In this document: piece after piece, positions 1-8,164 of the stretch | Layout: each line of letters opens with the position of its first letter | Position numbering within the stretch: the first letter of the stretch is position 1 | Origin: Phycisphaeraceae bacterium | GTDB taxonomy: Bacteria; Planctomycetota; Phycisphaerae; Phycisphaerales; Phycisphaeraceae | Assembly (NCBI GenBank): GCA_020831765.1 | Contig: JAFIFY010000093.1 | Location: 1 to 64,000, forward strand | Direction: 5' to 3' | DNA: 64,000 nucleotides | Notes under the pieces: generated by a model | Database searches by the model: none | What the model was told of the DNA's origin: nothing | What the model saw: the letters and a program-made list of their open reading frames with translations, nothing else | Program-made: the position numbers and the translations under genes

Positions 1-60
1 GACCTTCGGACGACGGTTGGGTAGGTTGCGGGTTGGCTTCGGATCGGGGTTGGATAGACT
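1..60 (+). CRISPR. Cas-proximal end of a type II-C CRISPR array (one repeat plus partial spacer)
   Basis: Bases 25-60 read as one CRISPR repeat of about 36 nt, starting GTTGCGGG and ending GGATAGACT. Bases 1-24 would be the end of a spacer whose start is outside the window. The repeat was recognised because 45-59 is a 15-nt exact reverse complement of 4699-4713 in the tracrRNA. The alignment then continues without gaps over 35 nt (27 Watson-Crick plus 4 wobble pairs). No second repeat copy follows before the cas2 stop at 111, so this is the array end next to the cas genes. Pairing with a plus-strand tracrRNA implies that the array is transcribed on the plus strand toward cas2, the reverse of the cas genes, as in several known II-C loci. 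Only one copy is visible, so the exact repeat boundaries are uncertain. Confidence 0.75.
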
Positions 61-110
61 ACTTCCCCGGCAAACGCCTTCCAGCAAGGGACTTGCGCTC
101 GATCCGGCAG

Positions 111-440
111 TCAGAAAAGCTCCAGTTGGAGCGGTGGTTCCTCGGGTTTGCGCTGTTTTTTCCCCCAGAACAGGCGCATGCGCTCGAATTGTTTGTCCGT
201 AATCGTGAGGATTCGGACCTCCCCGAGTTCGGGCACATGCGCGGCCACTCGGCTGATATGCACATCGGCGTTCTCCTCACTGGCACAATGGCGGACGTAA
301 ACGGAATATTGCATCTTCTGGAACCCATCCTCCAGCAGGAACTTACGGAACAGGGCGTAGGCGCGGCGGGCCTTCTTCGTGCTGACCGGAAGATCAAACA
401 TCGTCACGACCCACATGCACCGATATCCGCTGATGTACAT
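111..440 (-). CDS. cas2: CRISPR-associated endoribonuclease Cas2
   Basis: This 109-residue protein is the structural partner of Cas1 in spacer integration. The N-terminus MYISGYRCMWVVTMFDLPV carries the beta-1 strand and the conserved Asp of Cas2 (MFDLP). It is followed by an RRAYALFRKFLLEDGF helix and a QYSVYVRHC strand, all typical of the Cas2 that accompanies type II-C Cas9. The ATG at 440 is preferred over the upstream one at 470 because family members begin just before the CMW..MFDLP strand. The gene overlaps the 3' end of cas1 by 37 nt, so the two are translationally coupled. It is the last gene of the cas9-cas1-cas2 operon and stops about 50 nt before the CRISPR repeat. Confidence 0.93.
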   Translation of the reverse strand: MYISGYRCMWVVTMFDLPVSTKKARRAYALFRKFLLEDGFQKMQYSVYVRHCASEENADVHISRVAAHVPELGEVRILTITDKQFERMRLFWGKKQRKPEEPPLQLELF

Positions 441-1357
441 GGCCGTTGCTCCAATTCCTCCAGGCGGCACAGATCCAGCGTCTTGCGCTCTCCCAGCAGG
501 CAGTGAACCAGGGAGGCGACTGTTCGATGAAGCTGCACCATCAGCGGCCCGGACTGGCCGGCGATCTCGGCCGGGCTGGTCAGCATGGACAGAAGATGAG
601 CTTTATTTGACTGATTCATCGAGGTCCGCTTCTGCAAGTGCAGTTGCAGAACACGGCGATCGGCCAGCGGACGAAGGGGCTCGATGAGATCGTCGGCCAG
701 ACAGAACGCATTGGCCCGGTTGTGGTGGTGAATGCCCAGGGCCGGGTGGAGGCCGCCGGCGACGATCGCCCGGCCCAGCGCAGCGCGGAGCACCGCATAG
801 CCGTAGTTCAGCATGGCGTTGATGCTGTCCTGACCGTCCGGATCGCGTTTGAACCGGCCGAAACGCTCCCGCCAGCACGACCAGTAGACGCGCGCGGCCT
901 GGGCTTCGACATTGGTGGTGTCGCCGGATTTGACCTCTCCGGCCAGCACTGAGAGCCGCCTGGCTTCGGGCGAATCGGCCGGGACGTTGCAGCGCTGCGC
1001 CCGGATCTTGGCCGCGACCAACTGACGCCAGAGTTGCTTGAGAAGCGGCCGGGAAGCGTTGATCTGCGCCTTGAGCCGGGTAACCTGCTCGGTGTGCTCC
1101 GACAGGGGCAGCATGATCCCGGCGGGCAGATGATCCCGCCCGCATATGACCACCGCCGCGCCCTGCCGCATCAGTGCCTGCATGGCGCTGTGCGAGTACG
1201 TGGTTCTGGGATGATCGATCACCACCAGACCGATATCTTCGGTGGGAATGCTGTGGGCCGTTTCCTTGGGCTGGTCGAACGGCTGAATCAGCAGTTGGTC
1301 ATGCCGGATCGAAAGATGCGTGGCCTGCCTGGAAATCTCGATCGTTCGCTTGATCAT
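404..1357 (-). CDS. cas1: CRISPR-associated endonuclease Cas1 (type II)
   Basis: This is the integrase subunit that inserts new spacers into the array together with Cas2. The protein is 317 residues from the ATG at 1357; an in-frame start at 1381 would add 8 residues. The N-terminal beta-domain contains VVIDHPRTTYSHSAMQALMRQGAAVVICG, the usual Cas1 segment. The C-terminal helical domain shows the metal-site series: Glu in NVEAQAARVYW, His in GGLHPALGIHH, and the acidic ADDLIEPLRP. These match the catalytic E-H-D/E triad of the family. The gene lies 76 nt downstream of cas9 and overlaps cas2. There is no cas4 or csn2 in the locus, which fits subtype II-C. Confidence 0.95.
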   Translation of the reverse strand: MIKRTIEISRQATHLSIRHDQLLIQPFDQPKETAHSIPTEDIGLVVIDHPRTTYSHSAMQALMRQGAAVVICGRDHLPAGIMLPLSEHTEQVTRLKAQINASRPLLKQLWRQLVAAKIRAQRCNVPADSPEARRLSVLAGEVKSGDTTNVEAQAARVYWSCWRERFGRFKRDPDGQDSINAMLNYGYAVLRAALGRAIVAGGLHPALGIHHHNRANAFCLADDLIEPLRPLADRRVLQLHLQKRTSMNQSNKAHLLSMLTSPAEIAGQSGPLMVQLHRTVASLVHCLLGERKTLDLCRLEELEQRPCTSADIGACGS

Positions 1358-1433
1358 GCCCGATACCCGGTTGCGGATCACGTAACCGATTCAAAAAGTA
1401 TCGGCCTCTTGTCCGCCCGGGTTAAGGCTTCGC

Positions 1434-4400
1434 TCAATCATTTGCCCATCGGATGCGGCCAAGCGGATCGACGAGCACCTTGCGAGCCATAAGAGTATTG
1501 GCCATGAATACTGGTTTCTCTTGATCCGAACTACGTCTCGCATCGGTAGCCCGAACGAACCAAATTTGCCCCTGAGTCGAGGATGCAGTTTTGAATACCA
1601 ACAATTCCTCGTTTCCGTCCCGAAGCTTTGCCAGCACCATCTCTCCCCTGCTGAGCGAGAACAGGAATCTTGCTTCGGGAGGAATCAGCGGATGATCGGC
1701 GGGCGGGGTGCGCTCGATGATGGTCCGCTTTTCCTTGACCCGCTGAATCGCTTCGAGCATCGTGACGAACACCGCGCCACGTTTCGTTTTGCCCTTTTCA
1801 TCCCATTCAAAGAGGCAAAGGTGATGGGTGGAGCCGGGCTTGATGTACACCGGGCTGCCTGAACGCTCCCGGATCGGCTGGATGGTCTTTTCCTTGCGGA
1901 GCACGCGCACGCGATTGATCGGAACTCCGGATTCCATCGCCAAGCCGTTCAGGGCGGCGGTGATCTTCTTCGCATCAAGCTTCTTACCCCGGCCCACTTC
2001 GATGCCCTGTTCGGTCAGACGATCGGTCACGATCCGGCGGATGACCGGGTCGCGAATGAGGGGAATTTCGTTAGCCGAGAGGCTGGTGACGGCCTTGCGC
2101 ACCACGAATTCGCCGGGGTTTTCGGTCGGCCCGTAAAAGGTGTCCTCATGCAGCGCGCCAGCCACCTTTCGTTCAGCGCGATGGGAAACATTGATCGCCC
2201 GAACGGCTTTCTCGGCATCTTCGCGGAATGATTCCCATGGGTAGGGGAGCGCTTCACCGGTCGGAACGGCCTGGCTCTGTTTGCGAATCCGGCTCAATTG
2301 CTGAAGGCGGCGGCGGTCGGTCAGGGCGACCACAAGGGCATCGACGGCGTGATGGCGGTGGTCATCGCGCGACTTGATCTCCGAATCGTCCCCGGTGATG
2401 AGGTTATTCAGGCCCCACTGATGGCGGAGTTCGGCGGTGGTCTGGCCCTTGAGGCCGAGCACCGCGTGGTCGTGGTCGAAGAGGCAGCGCAGGTACTCGG
2501 CGGTCATCCGGGCGATATATCCGGTGGCCGTCAACTGACGAGCGATGAAGTCATCCAGATCAAGCGTTTTCTGGGTGAGTTTCTTGAACTTGGGGTAGGG
2601 AAAGCTGCCGGAGCGAACAAGGCTCAGGGCTGTCTGGCAGATTTCCTCGAACCTGTTCGGATCGGTGTCCGCCAGCCATTCGTAGGGCGTCTTGTTGCCC
2701 TTGTCCCGGTTGGCCTCGCGCAGACAGACCACTTTGTTCAATTGAGAGTCATCAAGGCTGCGCGAGTAGGGGAGGATATGGTCAATGTCGGTCTGGCCAT
2801 CATTGAAAAGCTGCGCGAGGCTGATCTTGCGACCCGAGTAGATACAGGTGTGGTTCTGTTGCTCCCACAGAAGAACCTTGATGATGTTGTTCCCGCGCGC
2901 CCCGTACCCCTGGTTGTTCTGGGTGAGCGTCTCCTTGGCCTTGTCCCGTTGCTGTTCGATTTCGCGGATGCGCGAGGTGTAATCGGCGCGTGCCTTGGGC
3001 CCTTGGCGTACCTGCCGGGCCATTTCCACGTGTACGGCGTCCGGCTTGCCATACTCGCGGATGATGGCGTTGACGACTTTGCGGAGCTCGACCAAGGCGC
3101 GTTTGACCACGGGGTTGGGAATGTCCCCGATCCGTGCCTCCCGGCTGCGTGCCGGGTCTGGCAATTGATCGAAAACGCGTCGCTGCAACTGGTCGCGGCG
3201 GAGGTACCCGGCGGCGTGGAGGGCTGAGTTGCGATCATCCTCGGCCATCAGAACCAGGCCGCGCTCCAGATGCGGCAGCAGTTTTTCTATCGCGGCCAGC
3301 GAATAGCTGACATAACCCTTGGTGGGGCCGGCATCCAGGTCAACCTCCAGCAGGTTCGAGGCTTGTTCCGGGGTCAGGCCGAAATCGTGGACAAGCCGTT
3401 GCTGGGTTTCATCATCATCGAGGCTGTGAATCAGCTCGCGGACAATCTGGTTGCGTTGTTCCTCGGGCAGTTTCCACCAGCCCTTGCCATACGCTTTGGG
3501 GCCGGCCAGCAGGGCATCGGTGACCATGCCTTTGAGCTTGGCTCGCTTGCCCTGCTCGAGGTTGAAGCGAATCTGTTCCTCGGGCGGAGAATCCGGCATC
3601 TTGCTGATCCACTTGCGCATCTGGTCAAAGCTCGCCTCTCCGGTCTGGGAGAGCTTGTCCAGAAGAAGCGCCCGTTCCTTGGGATTCAACGCGCGCTCCG
3701 CGGGTGGATTGAGCGATTGATCGATGAAGCGGAGGTTGTTGACCTCCTGAAGCAAACGGAATCGCTGGGCCAGCCGATCAGCGCGATGGCATCGGCGCTG
3801 CTTGGGTTCCAGTTCACAGAGGCCGATGATTTCCCTGGGTACGGGCTTGAGGGTTCGATGGAAGAAGATCAGGCCGTACAGGCCGAACGCCTCCAGATCG
3901 GAAAGCCCCGTACGCCGAGCATCCGATTTTGCGATCGGGGCGTGGATCGGCTTGAGCTGGCCCAACTTGCCATAGGCCAGCATCATCGGGAAATCGGACG
4001 GACTGAGTTCGGCTTGCTTGCGCCAGATCAAATCGAACTCATCGCGGAGCATCCGCCGCAGGGTGTGGCGATTGCGGATGTGGTCATCGTCCTGGCGCTT
4101 CATGTGCGTTAGCTGTTCAGCTTTTCGGTGGAGGTACTCGCCCAGCGTCCGGGCGCCCGACGTCTTTATGGCGGAATCCAGACCGCTCATTTCCGCGAGA
4201 ATGCCCTTAGCTTCGGCGTCCCGGGCCTGTTCCTTCTTGCGGTTGGATTCAAACCCCCGGCGCTGGTTGAGATGCAGCAATACTCGGCCCATCTCGAATC
4301 GGCTGAGGGGCTGATCCAAAGCCTTAGCGCGAAGGGCGTAGGGGTCTTGACCGATCACCGCTTCCTGCTCGTGGGGATTTTCGGGTAGTAGCCCGATCTC

Positions 4401-4634
4401 GATGAGGGTTTGACGGAGTCTTCGTCGCCTGGCCGCGCGGCGGCGAGTCTGCCGTCGCATCATTCGGGCGTCCCGGCGATCCTCATTGCGAGGCTTCTCC
4501 TTCTTGGAATCGAAATTGTCCACGCCCTCAGGAAAGACCCGTGTTCCAATGCCGAGTACCCGGCCTTCCTGATCGTCGATCAGTGCCCAGCCGATGGAAT
4601 TGGGACCGAGATCGAGTCCAAGGGTCGTTGCCAT
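1434..4634 (-). CDS. cas9: Type II-C Cas9 RNA-guided endonuclease, compact (1066 aa)
   Basis: This is the dual-RNA-guided DNA endonuclease of the locus. At 1066 residues it has the size of compact II-C enzymes. RuvC-I lies at the N-terminus (LGLDLGPNSIGWAL, Asp8) and is followed by an arginine-rich bridge helix at about 52-75. RuvC-II is HVEMARQ with Glu537. The HNH domain contains DIDHILPYSRSLDD with His619 and downstream Asn633/Asn642. RuvC-III is DDHRHHAVDALVVAL with His762 and Asp765. All residues needed for cutting both strands are therefore present. The remaining C-terminus would be the wedge and PAM-interacting region and is not recognisable by eye. The start is an ATG with GGAG about 6 nt upstream. 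The gene leads the cas9-cas1-cas2 operon and diverges from the tracrRNA gene. Confidence 0.97.
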   Translation of the reverse strand: MATTLGLDLGPNSIGWALIDDQEGRVLGIGTRVFPEGVDNFDSKKEKPRNEDRRDARMMRRQTRRRAARRRRLRQTLIEIGLLPENPHEQEAVIGQDPYALRAKALDQPLSRFEMGRVLLHLNQRRGFESNRKKEQARDAEAKGILAEMSGLDSAIKTSGARTLGEYLHRKAEQLTHMKRQDDDHIRNRHTLRRMLRDEFDLIWRKQAELSPSDFPMMLAYGKLGQLKPIHAPIAKSDARRTGLSDLEAFGLYGLIFFHRTLKPVPREIIGLCELEPKQRRCHRADRLAQRFRLLQEVNNLRFIDQSLNPPAERALNPKERALLLDKLSQTGEASFDQMRKWISKMPDSPPEEQIRFNLEQGKRAKLKGMVTDALLAGPKAYGKGWWKLPEEQRNQIVRELIHSLDDDETQQRLVHDFGLTPEQASNLLEVDLDAGPTKGYVSYSLAAIEKLLPHLERGLVLMAEDDRNSALHAAGYLRRDQLQRRVFDQLPDPARSREARIGDIPNPVVKRALVELRKVVNAIIREYGKPDAVHVEMARQVRQGPKARADYTSRIREIEQQRDKAKETLTQNNQGYGARGNNIIKVLLWEQQNHTCIYSGRKISLAQLFNDGQTDIDHILPYSRSLDDSQLNKVVCLREANRDKGNKTPYEWLADTDPNRFEEICQTALSLVRSGSFPYPKFKKLTQKTLDLDDFIARQLTATGYIARMTAEYLRCLFDHDHAVLGLKGQTTAELRHQWGLNNLITGDDSEIKSRDDHRHHAVDALVVALTDRRRLQQLSRIRKQSQAVPTGEALPYPWESFREDAEKAVRAINVSHRAERKVAGALHEDTFYGPTENPGEFVVRKAVTSLSANEIPLIRDPVIRRIVTDRLTEQGIEVGRGKKLDAKKITAALNGLAMESGVPINRVRVLRKEKTIQPIRERSGSPVYIKPGSTHHLCLFEWDEKGKTKRGAVFVTMLEAIQRVKEKRTIIERTPPADHPLIPPEARFLFSLSRGEMVLAKLRDGNEELLVFKTASSTQGQIWFVRATDARRSSDQEKPVFMANTLMARKVLVDPLGRIRWAND

Positions 4635-4663
4635 GAAAATCTCCCGAAACTGGAGGAAAGGGG

Positions 4664-4692
4664 TTGACAGCGGGATGATAAAACGAAATACT
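4664..4692 (+). promoter_or_regulatory. tracrRNA promoter
   Basis: A perfect sigma-70 -35 box TTGACA (4664-4669) is followed after exactly 17 nt by AATACT (4687-4692). The expected transcription start, about 7 nt downstream near 4698-4700, coincides with the first base of the anti-repeat. This supports both the promoter and the tracrRNA 5' end. Confidence 0.75.
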
Positions 4693-4703
4693 TAGGGCGT
4701 CTA
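4675..4703 (-). promoter_or_regulatory. Candidate cas9 operon promoter, overlapping the tracrRNA promoter
   Basis: On the minus strand TATCAT (complement of 4675-4680, 5 of 6 matches to a -10) sits 17 nt from TAGACG (complement of 4698-4703, 4 of 6 matches to a -35). The predicted start near 4668 gives a leader of about 33 nt to the cas9 ATG. The -10 lies inside the spacer of the tracrRNA promoter and the -35 lies on the tracrRNA start site. The -35 is weak, so a different cas9 promoter inside the tracrRNA gene is possible. Confidence 0.45.
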
Positions 4704-4801
4704 TCCAACCCCGGCCCGCGGCCTTCTCGTAACAAGAAGAAGAATTCGCAGGCCACGCTCCACGGAGCGACCGGCCGCACCTTAGCGGGGGCGGCCTTTT
4801 T
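4698..4801 (+). ncRNA. tracrRNA of the type II-C system
   Basis: This is an RNA of about 104 nt that would pair with the CRISPR repeat to guide Cas9. The anti-repeat spans 4699-4733. Its first 15 nt are an exact reverse complement of repeat bases 45-59, and the rest aligns without gaps to base 25 with four non-pairing positions forming small internal loops. Downstream is a CGCTC-CACG-GAGCG hairpin (4756-4769), a candidate nexus-region stem, and then a terminator hairpin GGCCGC/GCGGCC with a run of five T ending at 4801. A sigma-70 promoter lies immediately upstream. The gene diverges from cas9, a common place for tracrRNA. The secondary structure was judged by eye only. Confidence 0.85.
4773..4801 (+). 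terminator. Rho-independent terminator of the tracrRNA
   Basis: Inverted repeat GGCCGC (4773-4778) and GCGGCC (4791-4796) with a 12-nt loop, followed directly by TTTTT (4797-4801). Confidence 0.75.
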
Positions 4802-4926: not shown

Positions 4927-7900
4927 TCAATTCCCATGCGGGTTGAGGAGGTTTCGTTGGGTTGGGGGTGGGAAGTCGGCTCGTTGTTGGAGCAGCCAGT
5001 CGGGGATGGGGCCGAAGTCGGTTCCCGGCTGGTGTTGGAAGAGGCCGATTTCACCTTGTGAGCGGTTGAGGTTCACATCGCGGCCGCGCAGAATCACTTC
5101 ATCCTGTCCGCCGTGGTTGACCCGGACGAGCACCGCTCCGTCGGCGATCTCACCGTCAAGCGCTGAGTTGGGGAAACTGATCACATCGCGGCGGCCGCCG
5201 GGGAAGGTGAGGGTGATCGAGTTGTCGCGGGAGGCGATTCTCGGGCCCCGGGCATCGGGATAGAGGACGGTGATGAACTGGCCGTGGGTCTGATCGGGAT
5301 CGGTGGCGGGGATGGTCAGTCGAACGCCAGTGGTGGCCTCGGGGCCGCGTGGTCCGCGCGGGTTGGTCCAGTTGAACTCCTCGAAGCCGAATTCCTCGGG
5401 ATAGGCGACGCCGAGCGTCATCGTGTCGCCGAAGGTCAGCACATTGTCCCGGCGTGAGACGTTGGCCGCATCGACGTGCAGGCAGTAAGTCGCATCGACG
5501 GCCGGGCCCTGGAACTCATCGCGAATGACCACGTAATCGGGGATGCGGCGATCGTTGGTGCGGATGAAGACCACGGTTCGCTGATAGACGATCGGTTCAT
5601 CAAAGTGTCGGTAGGGCCCGAAGTGATGGGTCGGTGCCGGTGGCAATCTGGGCACCTCGTGCATCCGGGAACTCTCGACGCGTCCGATGGCGGCATCGAC
5701 CCGGCCGGTTCGACGGAACGCGATCAGACGCTCGTAGCCGCCGATATCGGCAAAGGGCATCTGTCGCGTGGAGAAGGCCACACGATTGTGCATGTGCTCC
5801 TGCGAGGCGCGGTTTTCCGGCGTGGTCATGTGGGCCACGGCCATGCGCTGGCGATGGCCCACATAGTGGATCGCCAGTTGATCGCCCTGGTAGCCGGCGC
5901 GGTTGGGGCCGGATTTGAACGCCAGCAGGGTTTCACGCGGTCCGAGCGTGTCGTGCCGGAAGATCACGCCAAAGCCGGGAAACTCGGCGGTGTGAAGCCG
6001 TTGCATCCGTTCCTGATCGCCCATGTCGCGGATGAGTCGGATCAGCGCCTGGCCGTGAAGGCCCTTGGTCGGATCGACATCACCCAGGGGAAGCACCCTG
6101 CGGCCGTCGCCATCGGGAACACTCGATGCCATGAGGAACCGCGCCGCCGCCTGGTAGCGCGGGGTCGAGGCGATGTCGAAATCCAGGAAGGTCTGACTGA
6201 CTTCGCGCAATTGATAAAGCGTCTGAAGGGCATCGGTCATCAATCCCGGCGGATCCTGTCCCGCGCCGCCGGGCATGGTGATCGAATAGGCCATATCCGT
6301 TTCCAGCGCGTTGACCGCGAGCTGGCGGAGTTGATCGAAGCTTGGATGATCGCGCAGGCTCATGGCTTGGACGACGGGCATCCGGGTCAGAATGGTGCCC
6401 TCGGTGGCGGTGGGTGGCGACCAGCCGTTGAAGTAGTGGGGGAAGTAGTCCGGATCGAGTCGGACCTGCATATTGGAGAGGATTTCCCCGCTGCCTCGCG
6501 GGATGGATTGCTCCTGGGCGCGTCGGACCATGGAGCGGGTGATCTCTTCAATTTCGCCTCGCGGATCGGCGGCTTCGGGGCCGAGCGTCCACTCAGCGCC
6601 GAATCGTCCCTCGCGTCGGCCGAGGTATTCGGTCAGATACTGCCGCGCCAGTTTGTCCAGCGAAGCGAGGTGTTCGAAAACGACCATATGGCGTATGGGA
6701 TCGCCGGTCCCCGCGGCGCCGGTGCCGATGCCTTCGGGAACGCCGCGCGGCCCTTGGGGAACTCGCGGACCGCCGCCGGGCGGTGGCAGACGAGGGGGCG
6801 GAGCAGCCCCGGGCCGCATGCCAGGGGCCGGTCGCACACCGGGCAGCGGCCCGACCGTGCCCAGTCGCACAGGCTCGCCCGGATCATCCCGGACCATCAG
6901 CAGCCAGAACCGCTCGCCCGGCCTCGTGGGAAAGCGGAGCCAGCGCTTGCCGAACTGCTCCTGGAACAACTCGGGCATGATGCCATCGAAAGGGTTCTTC
7001 CAGAGTCCGGCCCGCGCGGCGATGACGCCGGCAAGCGTGTCGCGATCGGCGTGGCCGTAGAACCAACCCGTCCGAGGCGAGCGCAGCCAATGCGGAGATA
7101 AACGCATCTGCGCAACCTCGATCACGTCCGCTTCCGGGGGTGTCTCACGAAGCTCCATCCTGGCCTCGGCCGAATCGGCCTCGGTCTGGCCGAACGGGCG
7201 GACAACGATCGTGCCCGGATGCCATCCTTCGGAAAGGTCCAGCTTCCAGGCATGATCGCGGCCCATGTTCAGCTTTTCATGGATTTCCGCATGATTGCGG
7301 CCGGCGAACAGCGTGACCCTCATGGTCATCTCCGAGCCTTCATCATCCAGCAGACCGGGAAGGAAGCGGTAGCGGAGGACCGCCCGGGCGAAGACGGGTC
7401 CGGGTTCGGTCAACTCGACATCGAGCCGGTCGATGGGCGGTGCCTGTTCCCACCGGCTGGACATGATCCAGCGCCCGCCATCCCGCCGGATGCCCTGGAT
7501 CGGCCCGGGTCGGCCGGTCTCCGTGGGCGTGGGCAGGCGCACGGCGATGGTGCCATTGTCGAGGATGTAATCCATGCCCCCATCACGAATCACCCGCACC
7601 GTCGCTTCATGTCGCTCCGAAGCGCCGCGCTCCAGCGTGAAGGTGGCCTGGCTGAATCGGCGGCAATTGGCCAGCACCCAGATCACGCCCTGGCGGACCT
7701 CATCGGCGTCGCCGTCCATGATCTCAACCTGCCAGGGAATCTCCTGACCATCCTGCCTGACCAGCCATTCCGAGGGGCGAAACGGGACCGGCAGGGTCAT
7801 GCCCAGGCGCAGCGGCTGGTTGGTGTAGTCGTGCTCGGTCGGGTTGTGGAACGTCCAGGTCAGGCGCTGGGGCATGGCCGCGGCCGGTGCGATGTGCCAG

Positions 7901-7968
7901 CACAAGGCGAATATAAGCAGAAGGATGGCTGTGGCGAACGGCTGTCGTTTCGAAGATGCGGGGAACAT
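4927..7968 (-). CDS. Secreted heparinase II/III-like protein (putative polysaccharide lyase)
   Basis: This is a large exported protein of 1013 residues. The ATG at 7968 follows AAGGGAG and begins a clear signal peptide (basic MFPASSKRQ, a hydrophobic stretch, then PAAA-M). The C-terminal third has the look of a heparinase II/III fold: a central motif EFPGFGVIFRHD, then an aromatic and His-rich beta-sandwich with VIRDEFQGPAVDATYCLHVDA. The middle contains an alpha-helical region with DYFPHYFNGWSPP and a long helical array. The N-terminal 400 residues look like additional beta domains. A Pro/Gly-rich low-complexity linker lies near residues 390-430. By family analogy it could eliminate glycosidic bonds in uronate-containing glycans. 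The catalytic residues were not identified with certainty and the substrate is unknown. The gene is monocistronic. Confidence 0.55.
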   Translation of the reverse strand: MFPASSKRQPFATAILLLIFALCWHIAPAAAMPQRLTWTFHNPTEHDYTNQPLRLGMTLPVPFRPSEWLVRQDGQEIPWQVEIMDGDADEVRQGVIWVLANCRRFSQATFTLERGASERHEATVRVIRDGGMDYILDNGTIAVRLPTPTETGRPGPIQGIRRDGGRWIMSSRWEQAPPIDRLDVELTEPGPVFARAVLRYRFLPGLLDDEGSEMTMRVTLFAGRNHAEIHEKLNMGRDHAWKLDLSEGWHPGTIVVRPFGQTEADSAEARMELRETPPEADVIEVAQMRLSPHWLRSPRTGWFYGHADRDTLAGVIAARAGLWKNPFDGIMPELFQEQFGKRWLRFPTRPGERFWLLMVRDDPGEPVRLGTVGPLPGVRPAPGMRPGAAPPPRLPPPGGGPRVPQGPRGVPEGIGTGAAGTGDPIRHMVVFEHLASLDKLARQYLTEYLGRREGRFGAEWTLGPEAADPRGEIEEITRSMVRRAQEQSIPRGSGEILSNMQVRLDPDYFPHYFNGWSPPTATEGTILTRMPVVQAMSLRDHPSFDQLRQLAVNALETDMAYSITMPGGAGQDPPGLMTDALQTLYQLREVSQTFLDFDIASTPRYQAAARFLMASSVPDGDGRRVLPLGDVDPTKGLHGQALIRLIRDMGDQERMQRLHTAEFPGFGVIFRHDTLGPRETLLAFKSGPNRAGYQGDQLAIHYVGHRQRMAVAHMTTPENRASQEHMHNRVAFSTRQMPFADIGGYERLIAFRRTGRVDAAIGRVESSRMHEVPRLPPAPTHHFGPYRHFDEPIVYQRTVVFIRTNDRRIPDYVVIRDEFQGPAVDATYCLHVDAANVSRRDNVLTFGDTMTLGVAYPEEFGFEEFNWTNPRGPRGPEATTGVRLTIPATDPDQTHGQFITVLYPDARGPRIASRDNSITLTFPGGRRDVISFPNSALDGEIADGAVLVRVNHGGQDEVILRGRDVNLNRSQGEIGLFQHQPGTDFGPIPDWLLQQRADFPPPTQRNLLNPHGN

Positions 7969-8164
7969 GGAACACTCCCTTGAAACCGGTGGTCGGATAA
8001 GGCGCCGGTGTTGTGCCTTCAGCCTAACGAGCGGGGACGGATAATCATTCGCCCCCGGCCGAAACCGGCCCGATAATCCGGTTCCTATGGAGTACCGACC
8101 GCCCGCCGGGCGGGTTTCGTCGCCGGGAAATTTCATCGTGAGGCTTGGCCGGTTGATCTGGCGT

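Follow-up and report, generated by a model that had tools for sequence, protein, structure and literature searches.

The window analysed here, a stretch of 64,000 nucleotides (nt) from a Phycisphaeraceae bacterium that runs from base 1, i.e. the very end, of contig C96 (JAFIFY010000093.1), carries at its left edge a locus of clustered regularly interspaced short palindromic repeats (CRISPR) with cas9, cas1, cas2 and a trans-activating CRISPR RNA (tracrRNA). This locus is very probably the type II-C CRISPR-Cas system of a planctomycete, with an array that is transcribed toward cas2. Comparison of the Cas9 family, which outweighs the window locus in importance, moreover points to a module in eight relatives (outside the window) in which a guide built into the locus would, on balance, seem to let Cas9 silence a toxin RNA. 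The features of the window locus are as follows.

1-24, plus strand: final 24 nt of a spacer truncated by the contig end (relatives have spacers of ~30 nt)
25-60, plus strand: 36-nt CRISPR repeat, CRISPR RNA (crRNA) strand, cas2-proximal (3'-most); 36-nt repeats stand at the equivalent place in relatives
55-60, plus strand: possible -10 element TAGACT inside the repeat, read from sequence only (TACACT or TACAAT in most relatives)
61-110, no strand: junction of 50 nt from the array to the cas2 stop codon, likely the leader/acquisition (integration) end, judged by its length and by conserved positions in relatives
111-470, minus strand: cas2, 119 amino acids, GTG start (TIGR01573, 2.5e-20; PADLOC Cas2_II, 2.4e-46)
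404-1381, minus strand: cas1, 325 amino acids (TIGR03639 cas1_NMENI, 9.3e-74)
1434-4634, minus strand: cas9, 1066 amino acids (TIGR01865, E=1.5e-201)
4664-4692, plus strand: tracrRNA promoter TTGACA-17-AATACT, 10 of 12 consensus positions
4675-4703, minus strand: weaker promoter-like TAGACG-17-TATCAT in the cas9 direction, a consensus match only
4699-4733, plus strand: tracrRNA anti-repeat, recognised by its pairing with the repeat and by co-variation over 81 loci
4734-4801, plus strand: tracrRNA tail with a nexus-like TTCGCAGGC region, a hairpin and then the terminator; relatives have this tail too
4773-4796, then 4797-4801, plus strand: tracrRNA terminator, a hairpin (from the fold) followed by a T-run (UUUUU)

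The direction of the array is indicated by the pairing of the repeat with the anti-repeat, which runs without gaps over 35 nt (4699-4733 against repeat positions 1-35) and comprises 27 Watson-Crick pairs, 4 G-U pairs and 4 mismatches, with 15 consecutive Watson-Crick pairs at the 3' end of the repeat; the counts given in a sequence-only reading of the same DNA came out identical when recomputed. The ungapped pairing score at this place is 29.0, compared to 23.5 at the next-best place on both strands of the 64 kilobases (the repeat's own complement being excluded). That reading had also given the tracrRNA its own promoter and terminator, and both were found again, as the TTGACA-17-AATACT match and as the hairpin with its five U residues. 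The fold from which the tail is read has -42.1 kcal/mol (z -2.65). Its promoter match and that of cas9 on the opposite strand overlap (4664-4703), the -35 match on the cas9 side being supplied by the complement of the start of the anti-repeat.

The family of the window Cas9 was traced in relatives as well as across the order, class and phylum, which yielded about 100 loci for comparison. Among those that contain the whole block, nearly all show the order divergent tracrRNA, cas9, cas1, cas2, ~49 nt, and then the array, whose 36-nt repeats alternate with spacers of ~30 nt. Wherever both the repeat and the DNA upstream of cas9 could be read, the anti-repeat was located in that upstream DNA, on the strand opposite to cas9 and in most cases at a distance of 44-171 nt. 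Over 81 loci, the 3' half of the repeat and the 5' half of the anti-repeat co-vary across 15 pairs, with up to four Watson-Crick types per position, pairs 2-15 being paired in 96-100% and pair 1 in 85%; this co-variation fixes the crRNA strand as running toward cas2, the window included. The earlier assignment of that direction is thus upheld by pairing and co-variation across about 80 related loci. An unusual array direction was considered as a surprise and rejected, since it equals the described II-C layout (PMC12080349).

Cas9, Cas1 and Cas2 are intact in the window, and the three proteins match type II models, in line with the type II, II-C-like identity proposed from the sequence alone, on which about 80 related loci agree. 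The 1066-residue Cas9 does keep its catalytic residues, as had been stated: D8, E537, H619, N633, H762 and D765 of RuvC and HNH are all found (as motif positions). By phmmer, the solved chains nearest to it are Cas9 proteins of ~1083 amino acids (e.g. 6jdq, 6kc8 and 8ja0, at E about 1e-72), which we take to be N. meningitidis Cas9. The nearest named Cas9 locus belongs to a metagenome-assembled genome of Planctomycetota, of the same family as the window genome.

Several observations weigh against this assignment. The II-C-like placement comes from the nearest solved chains, a search of the tracrRNA region against Rfam gave no match, and the repeat at 25-60 is present as a single copy in the genome of 193 contigs and 4.71 megabases (Mb). 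No further repeats were found in the genome with up to 3 mismatches allowed, while a 20-nt core of the repeat matched only the repeat, the anti-repeat and, with 3 mismatches, one site in contig C22 that was judged to be chance. A decayed locus, of which one leftover repeat remains after loss of the array, would account for the single copy in 4.71 Mb, and yet it is very unlikely. All three cas genes are intact, the 24 nt in front of the repeat fit a spacer, and the contig ends at base 1, just the kind of break that short-read assembly produces within arrays. Of the array, only one repeat and 24 nt of spacer are in the assembly, the remainder being lost at this contig end. In addition, a sister locus with the same repeat type (L041; 2 of 36 repeat positions differ) has a second repeat copy 66 nt on, likewise at a contig end; the repeat period in relatives is 65-66 nt, and the loci L037-L045 have up to ~40 repeats at the place of the window array. 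The claim that the locus is complete is carried by the relatives, since the contig end truncates the array.

Still less credible is an array that is co-transcribed with the cas genes, the pairing at 4699-4733 then reflecting no more than an ancient copy of the repeat. The general idea that anti-repeats probably arose from repeats is its sole support (no tool result favours it), whereas the co-variation in 81 loci, the promoter and terminator of the tracrRNA and the conservation of its tail in relatives all argue against it.

For the II-C system with its array toward cas2, the relatives also suggest where spacers enter. The cas2-proximal repeat is mutated in 0 of 67 arrays, compared to 6 of 38 for the cas2-distal repeat, which is followed by a degenerate repeat in 3. 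In 73 of 80 loci, the cas2 stop and the repeat are 47-51 nt apart, and this junction beside the array has conserved AA..CCtT..TT positions across relatives, which are present in the window too. Intact cas2-side repeats and a conserved 50-nt junction thus fit spacer entry at the cas2 side. Type II-C arrays have been described as gaining spacers at the last (3') repeat and having a promoter in each repeat (PMC12080349); a second study likewise reports acquisition at the last repeat and repeat promoters, and calls II-C peculiar (PMC12638026).

The window locus is, judging from its sequence, probably a normal and working CRISPR-Cas9 immune locus. In such a system, cas9, cas1 and cas2 would be transcribed leftward as a single block, the tracrRNA rightward from the region upstream of cas9, and the array, which lies left of cas2, rightward toward cas2, presumably from promoters inside the repeats. 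The crRNA would pair with the anti-repeat of the tracrRNA and guide Cas9 to cut invading DNA, and new spacers would most likely enter at the cas2-side repeat. Like the type II-C systems of the Neisseria/Campylobacter type, the locus combines a compact Cas9 with cas1, cas2 and an array transcribed toward the probable acquisition end, with promoters proposed inside the repeats. No essential difference is apparent; its tracrRNA starts upstream of cas9 and runs away from it, and the promoter matches of the two overlap. Because this layout equals the published II-C arrangement, the locus is ordinary: it adds another planctomycete II-C system, with a predictable dual-RNA, and its value is modest.

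As for its surroundings, neither csn2 nor cas4 was found inside the cas block (the far side of the array lies outside the assembly). The open reading frame (ORF) adjoining the tracrRNA (4927-8136, minus strand, 1069 amino acids) has no Pfam match, and the first gene past the tracrRNA with a family match is an oxidoreductase. The spacer remnant at 1-24 has no exact match in viral contigs, in which no Cas9 was found either, and a search of the genome-contig collection with a Cas9 peptide pattern returned a single locus. The window genome holds two further type II loci, L035 (contig C49) and L036 (contig C136). The Cas9 open frame of L036 has 1402 amino acids, yet the locus closely resembles that of the window in Cas1 (56%), Cas2 (69%) and repeat, a pattern that is best read as effector exchange.

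The more consequential result lies outside the window. In six relatives the gap between tracrRNA and cas9 measures 361-839 nt (L014, L038, L044, L045, L147 and L173), and all six gaps hold a repeat-like element in the direction of the tracrRNA, with 2-9 mismatches from the array repeat; no such element was found in loci with a gap below 250 nt. A scan for repeat/anti-repeat pairs that is independent of the array repeat added L279 (= L265) and L304. A built-in guide was rejected for the window, because cas9 and the anti-repeat are just 64 nt apart. The features of the eight loci are listed below.

L014: repeat-like element 64-99; tRNA gene 252-339
L038: repeat-like element 7401-7436; tRNA gene 7585-7657
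L044 (reverse complement of the locus): repeat-like element 7717-7752; tRNA gene 7920-8007
L045: repeat-like element 461-496; tRNA-like gene 632-702
L147 (reverse complement of the locus): repeat-like element 1227-1262; built-in guide and promoter present; at 1345-1587, the RNA between promoter and cas9 is no tRNA and has no obvious mini-ORF
L173: repeat-like element 1274-1309; mini-ORF ATGAAGCACATACTAATAGGCTGA at 1438-1461, with a strong promoter and ribosome site before it and a stem-loop after it
L279 and L304: repeat-like element and tRNA or tRNA-like gene, upstream of cas9

In all eight loci, the 8-16 nt immediately 5' of the element recur in the gap, flush or one base off (combined p 1.2e-9; taken alone, L279 has p 0.10, and L038 and L304 about 0.04). 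The element was first spotted in three loci, after which the seed match was predicted for the other three and found. The match lies in or beside a promoter in the cas9 direction in six loci, e.g. TTGACA-17-TATTAT (L014), TTGACA-16-TAAAAT (L044) and TTGACA-17-TATGAT (L173), with a weaker promoter match in L045 (TTGCGA-17-TACGCT) and no clear promoter found in L279. When L279 is compared with L046 of the same genus, the module shows up as an insertion of ~345 nt that separates cas9 from the tracrRNA promoter, the tracrRNA itself being nearly identical.

Between element and cas9, ARAGORN finds a tRNA in L014, L038, L044 and L279, and a degenerate tRNA was recognised by hand in L045 and L304; the promoter, where found, ends 39-53 nt before the tRNA. 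The L044 tRNA has a Trp anticodon (CCA), while every one of its nearest relatives in a set of 127 tRNAs from five genomes is a Leu tRNA; in the same comparison, the L014 tRNA, with a Ser anticodon (TGA) and A73, is closest to Leu. Genuine tRNA-Trp (G077) and tRNA-Ser(TGA) (G002) are present in addition. The tRNAs of L038, L279, L045 and L304 have G3:U70, combined with the anticodons CCT (Arg) in L038 and GAT (Ile) in L279, and with TAA in L045 and CTA in L304, both read by eye and uncertain. G3:U70, the alanine mark, occurs in 4 of 4 normal tRNA-Ala and in no other isotype (a single Asp match is a trimming error). Neither AlaRS nor LeuRS (the alanyl- and leucyl-tRNA synthetases) uses the anticodon for recognition; this would account for the restriction to bodies of the Ala and Leu types. 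The chimeric tRNAs are candidates for mistranslating toxins. A regex scan for degenerate tRNAs elsewhere returned only loci already known, a search of the class for long Cas9 gave three new upstream regions with no tRNA in any of them, and the genome of the window yielded no chimeric tRNA.

We lean towards the view that in these relatives Cas9, directed by the guide built into the locus, shuts off the promoter of a toxin RNA encoded between tracrRNA and cas9 (a chimeric tRNA in six loci); the module would then be the type II equivalent of CreTA, and its toxin would belong to a new class. The guide would keep the toxin RNA silent, and loss or block of Cas9 would free it; in the six loci, the released tRNA, whose body signals charging with one amino acid while its anticodon belongs to another, would be mischarged and cause toxic mistranslation. 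Possible, though less likely, is that the guide merely tunes cas9 expression (as tracr-L does in II-A, or as CreR), the tRNA genes being neighbours or insertion sites. The targeted promoters indeed point toward cas9, L147 has no recognisable toxin, and in S. pyogenes the cas promoter is repressed by tracr-L, for which an 11-nt match is enough (PMC11417352). On the other hand, a tRNA or tRNA-like gene is found in six of the eight module loci and, by ARAGORN, between tracrRNA and cas9 in none of the other scanned upstream regions; all six bodies are of the Ala or Leu type, and the four clear anticodons mismatch the body. Moreover, an inverted repeat followed by Ts separates the tRNA from cas9 in L038, and L173 has a CreT-like mini-ORF.

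The toxin-guarding module shares with the type I CreTA an ectopic repeat-like element and a short guide match at the promoter of a toxin gene. The L173 mini-ORF (ATG AAG CAC ATA CTA ATA GGC TGA) with its stem-loop resembles the CreT of H. hubeiense, which has a stem-loop and an ORF of six codons, two adjacent ones being AUA (PMC8501985). However, the effector would be Cas9 with tracrRNA instead of Cascade with Cas6, and the toxin candidate in six loci is a tRNA or tRNA-like gene instead of a mini-ORF. Because the systems are type II and have no Cascade repressor, the module is said to work like CreTA and is not classed as a member. In both tracr-L and the module, the guide lies upstream of the tracrRNA and matches, over a short stretch, a promoter in front of cas9, whereas the module has a separate repeat-like element that departs from the array repeat at 2-9 positions, and its target promoter leads first to a tRNA or mini-ORF. 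As cited in PMC9458426, the small CRISPR-Cas-associated RNA (scaRNA) of Francisella novicida Cas9 uses a degenerate repeat and a short match with which active Cas9 represses transcription; both elements are common to the module, but the scaRNA target is a lipoprotein operon elsewhere, while that of the module lies inside the CRISPR locus. In the literature covered, CreTA is described for type I, and no paper was found that combines CreT with Cas9 or with a chimeric tRNA; the first description of tracr-L and part of the CreR literature lie outside this coverage, which leaves absence unproven.

The proposed module is well supported by sequence. If this reading is true, Cas9 systems too would be able to make themselves addictive to their host, with mischarged tRNAs as the toxin.
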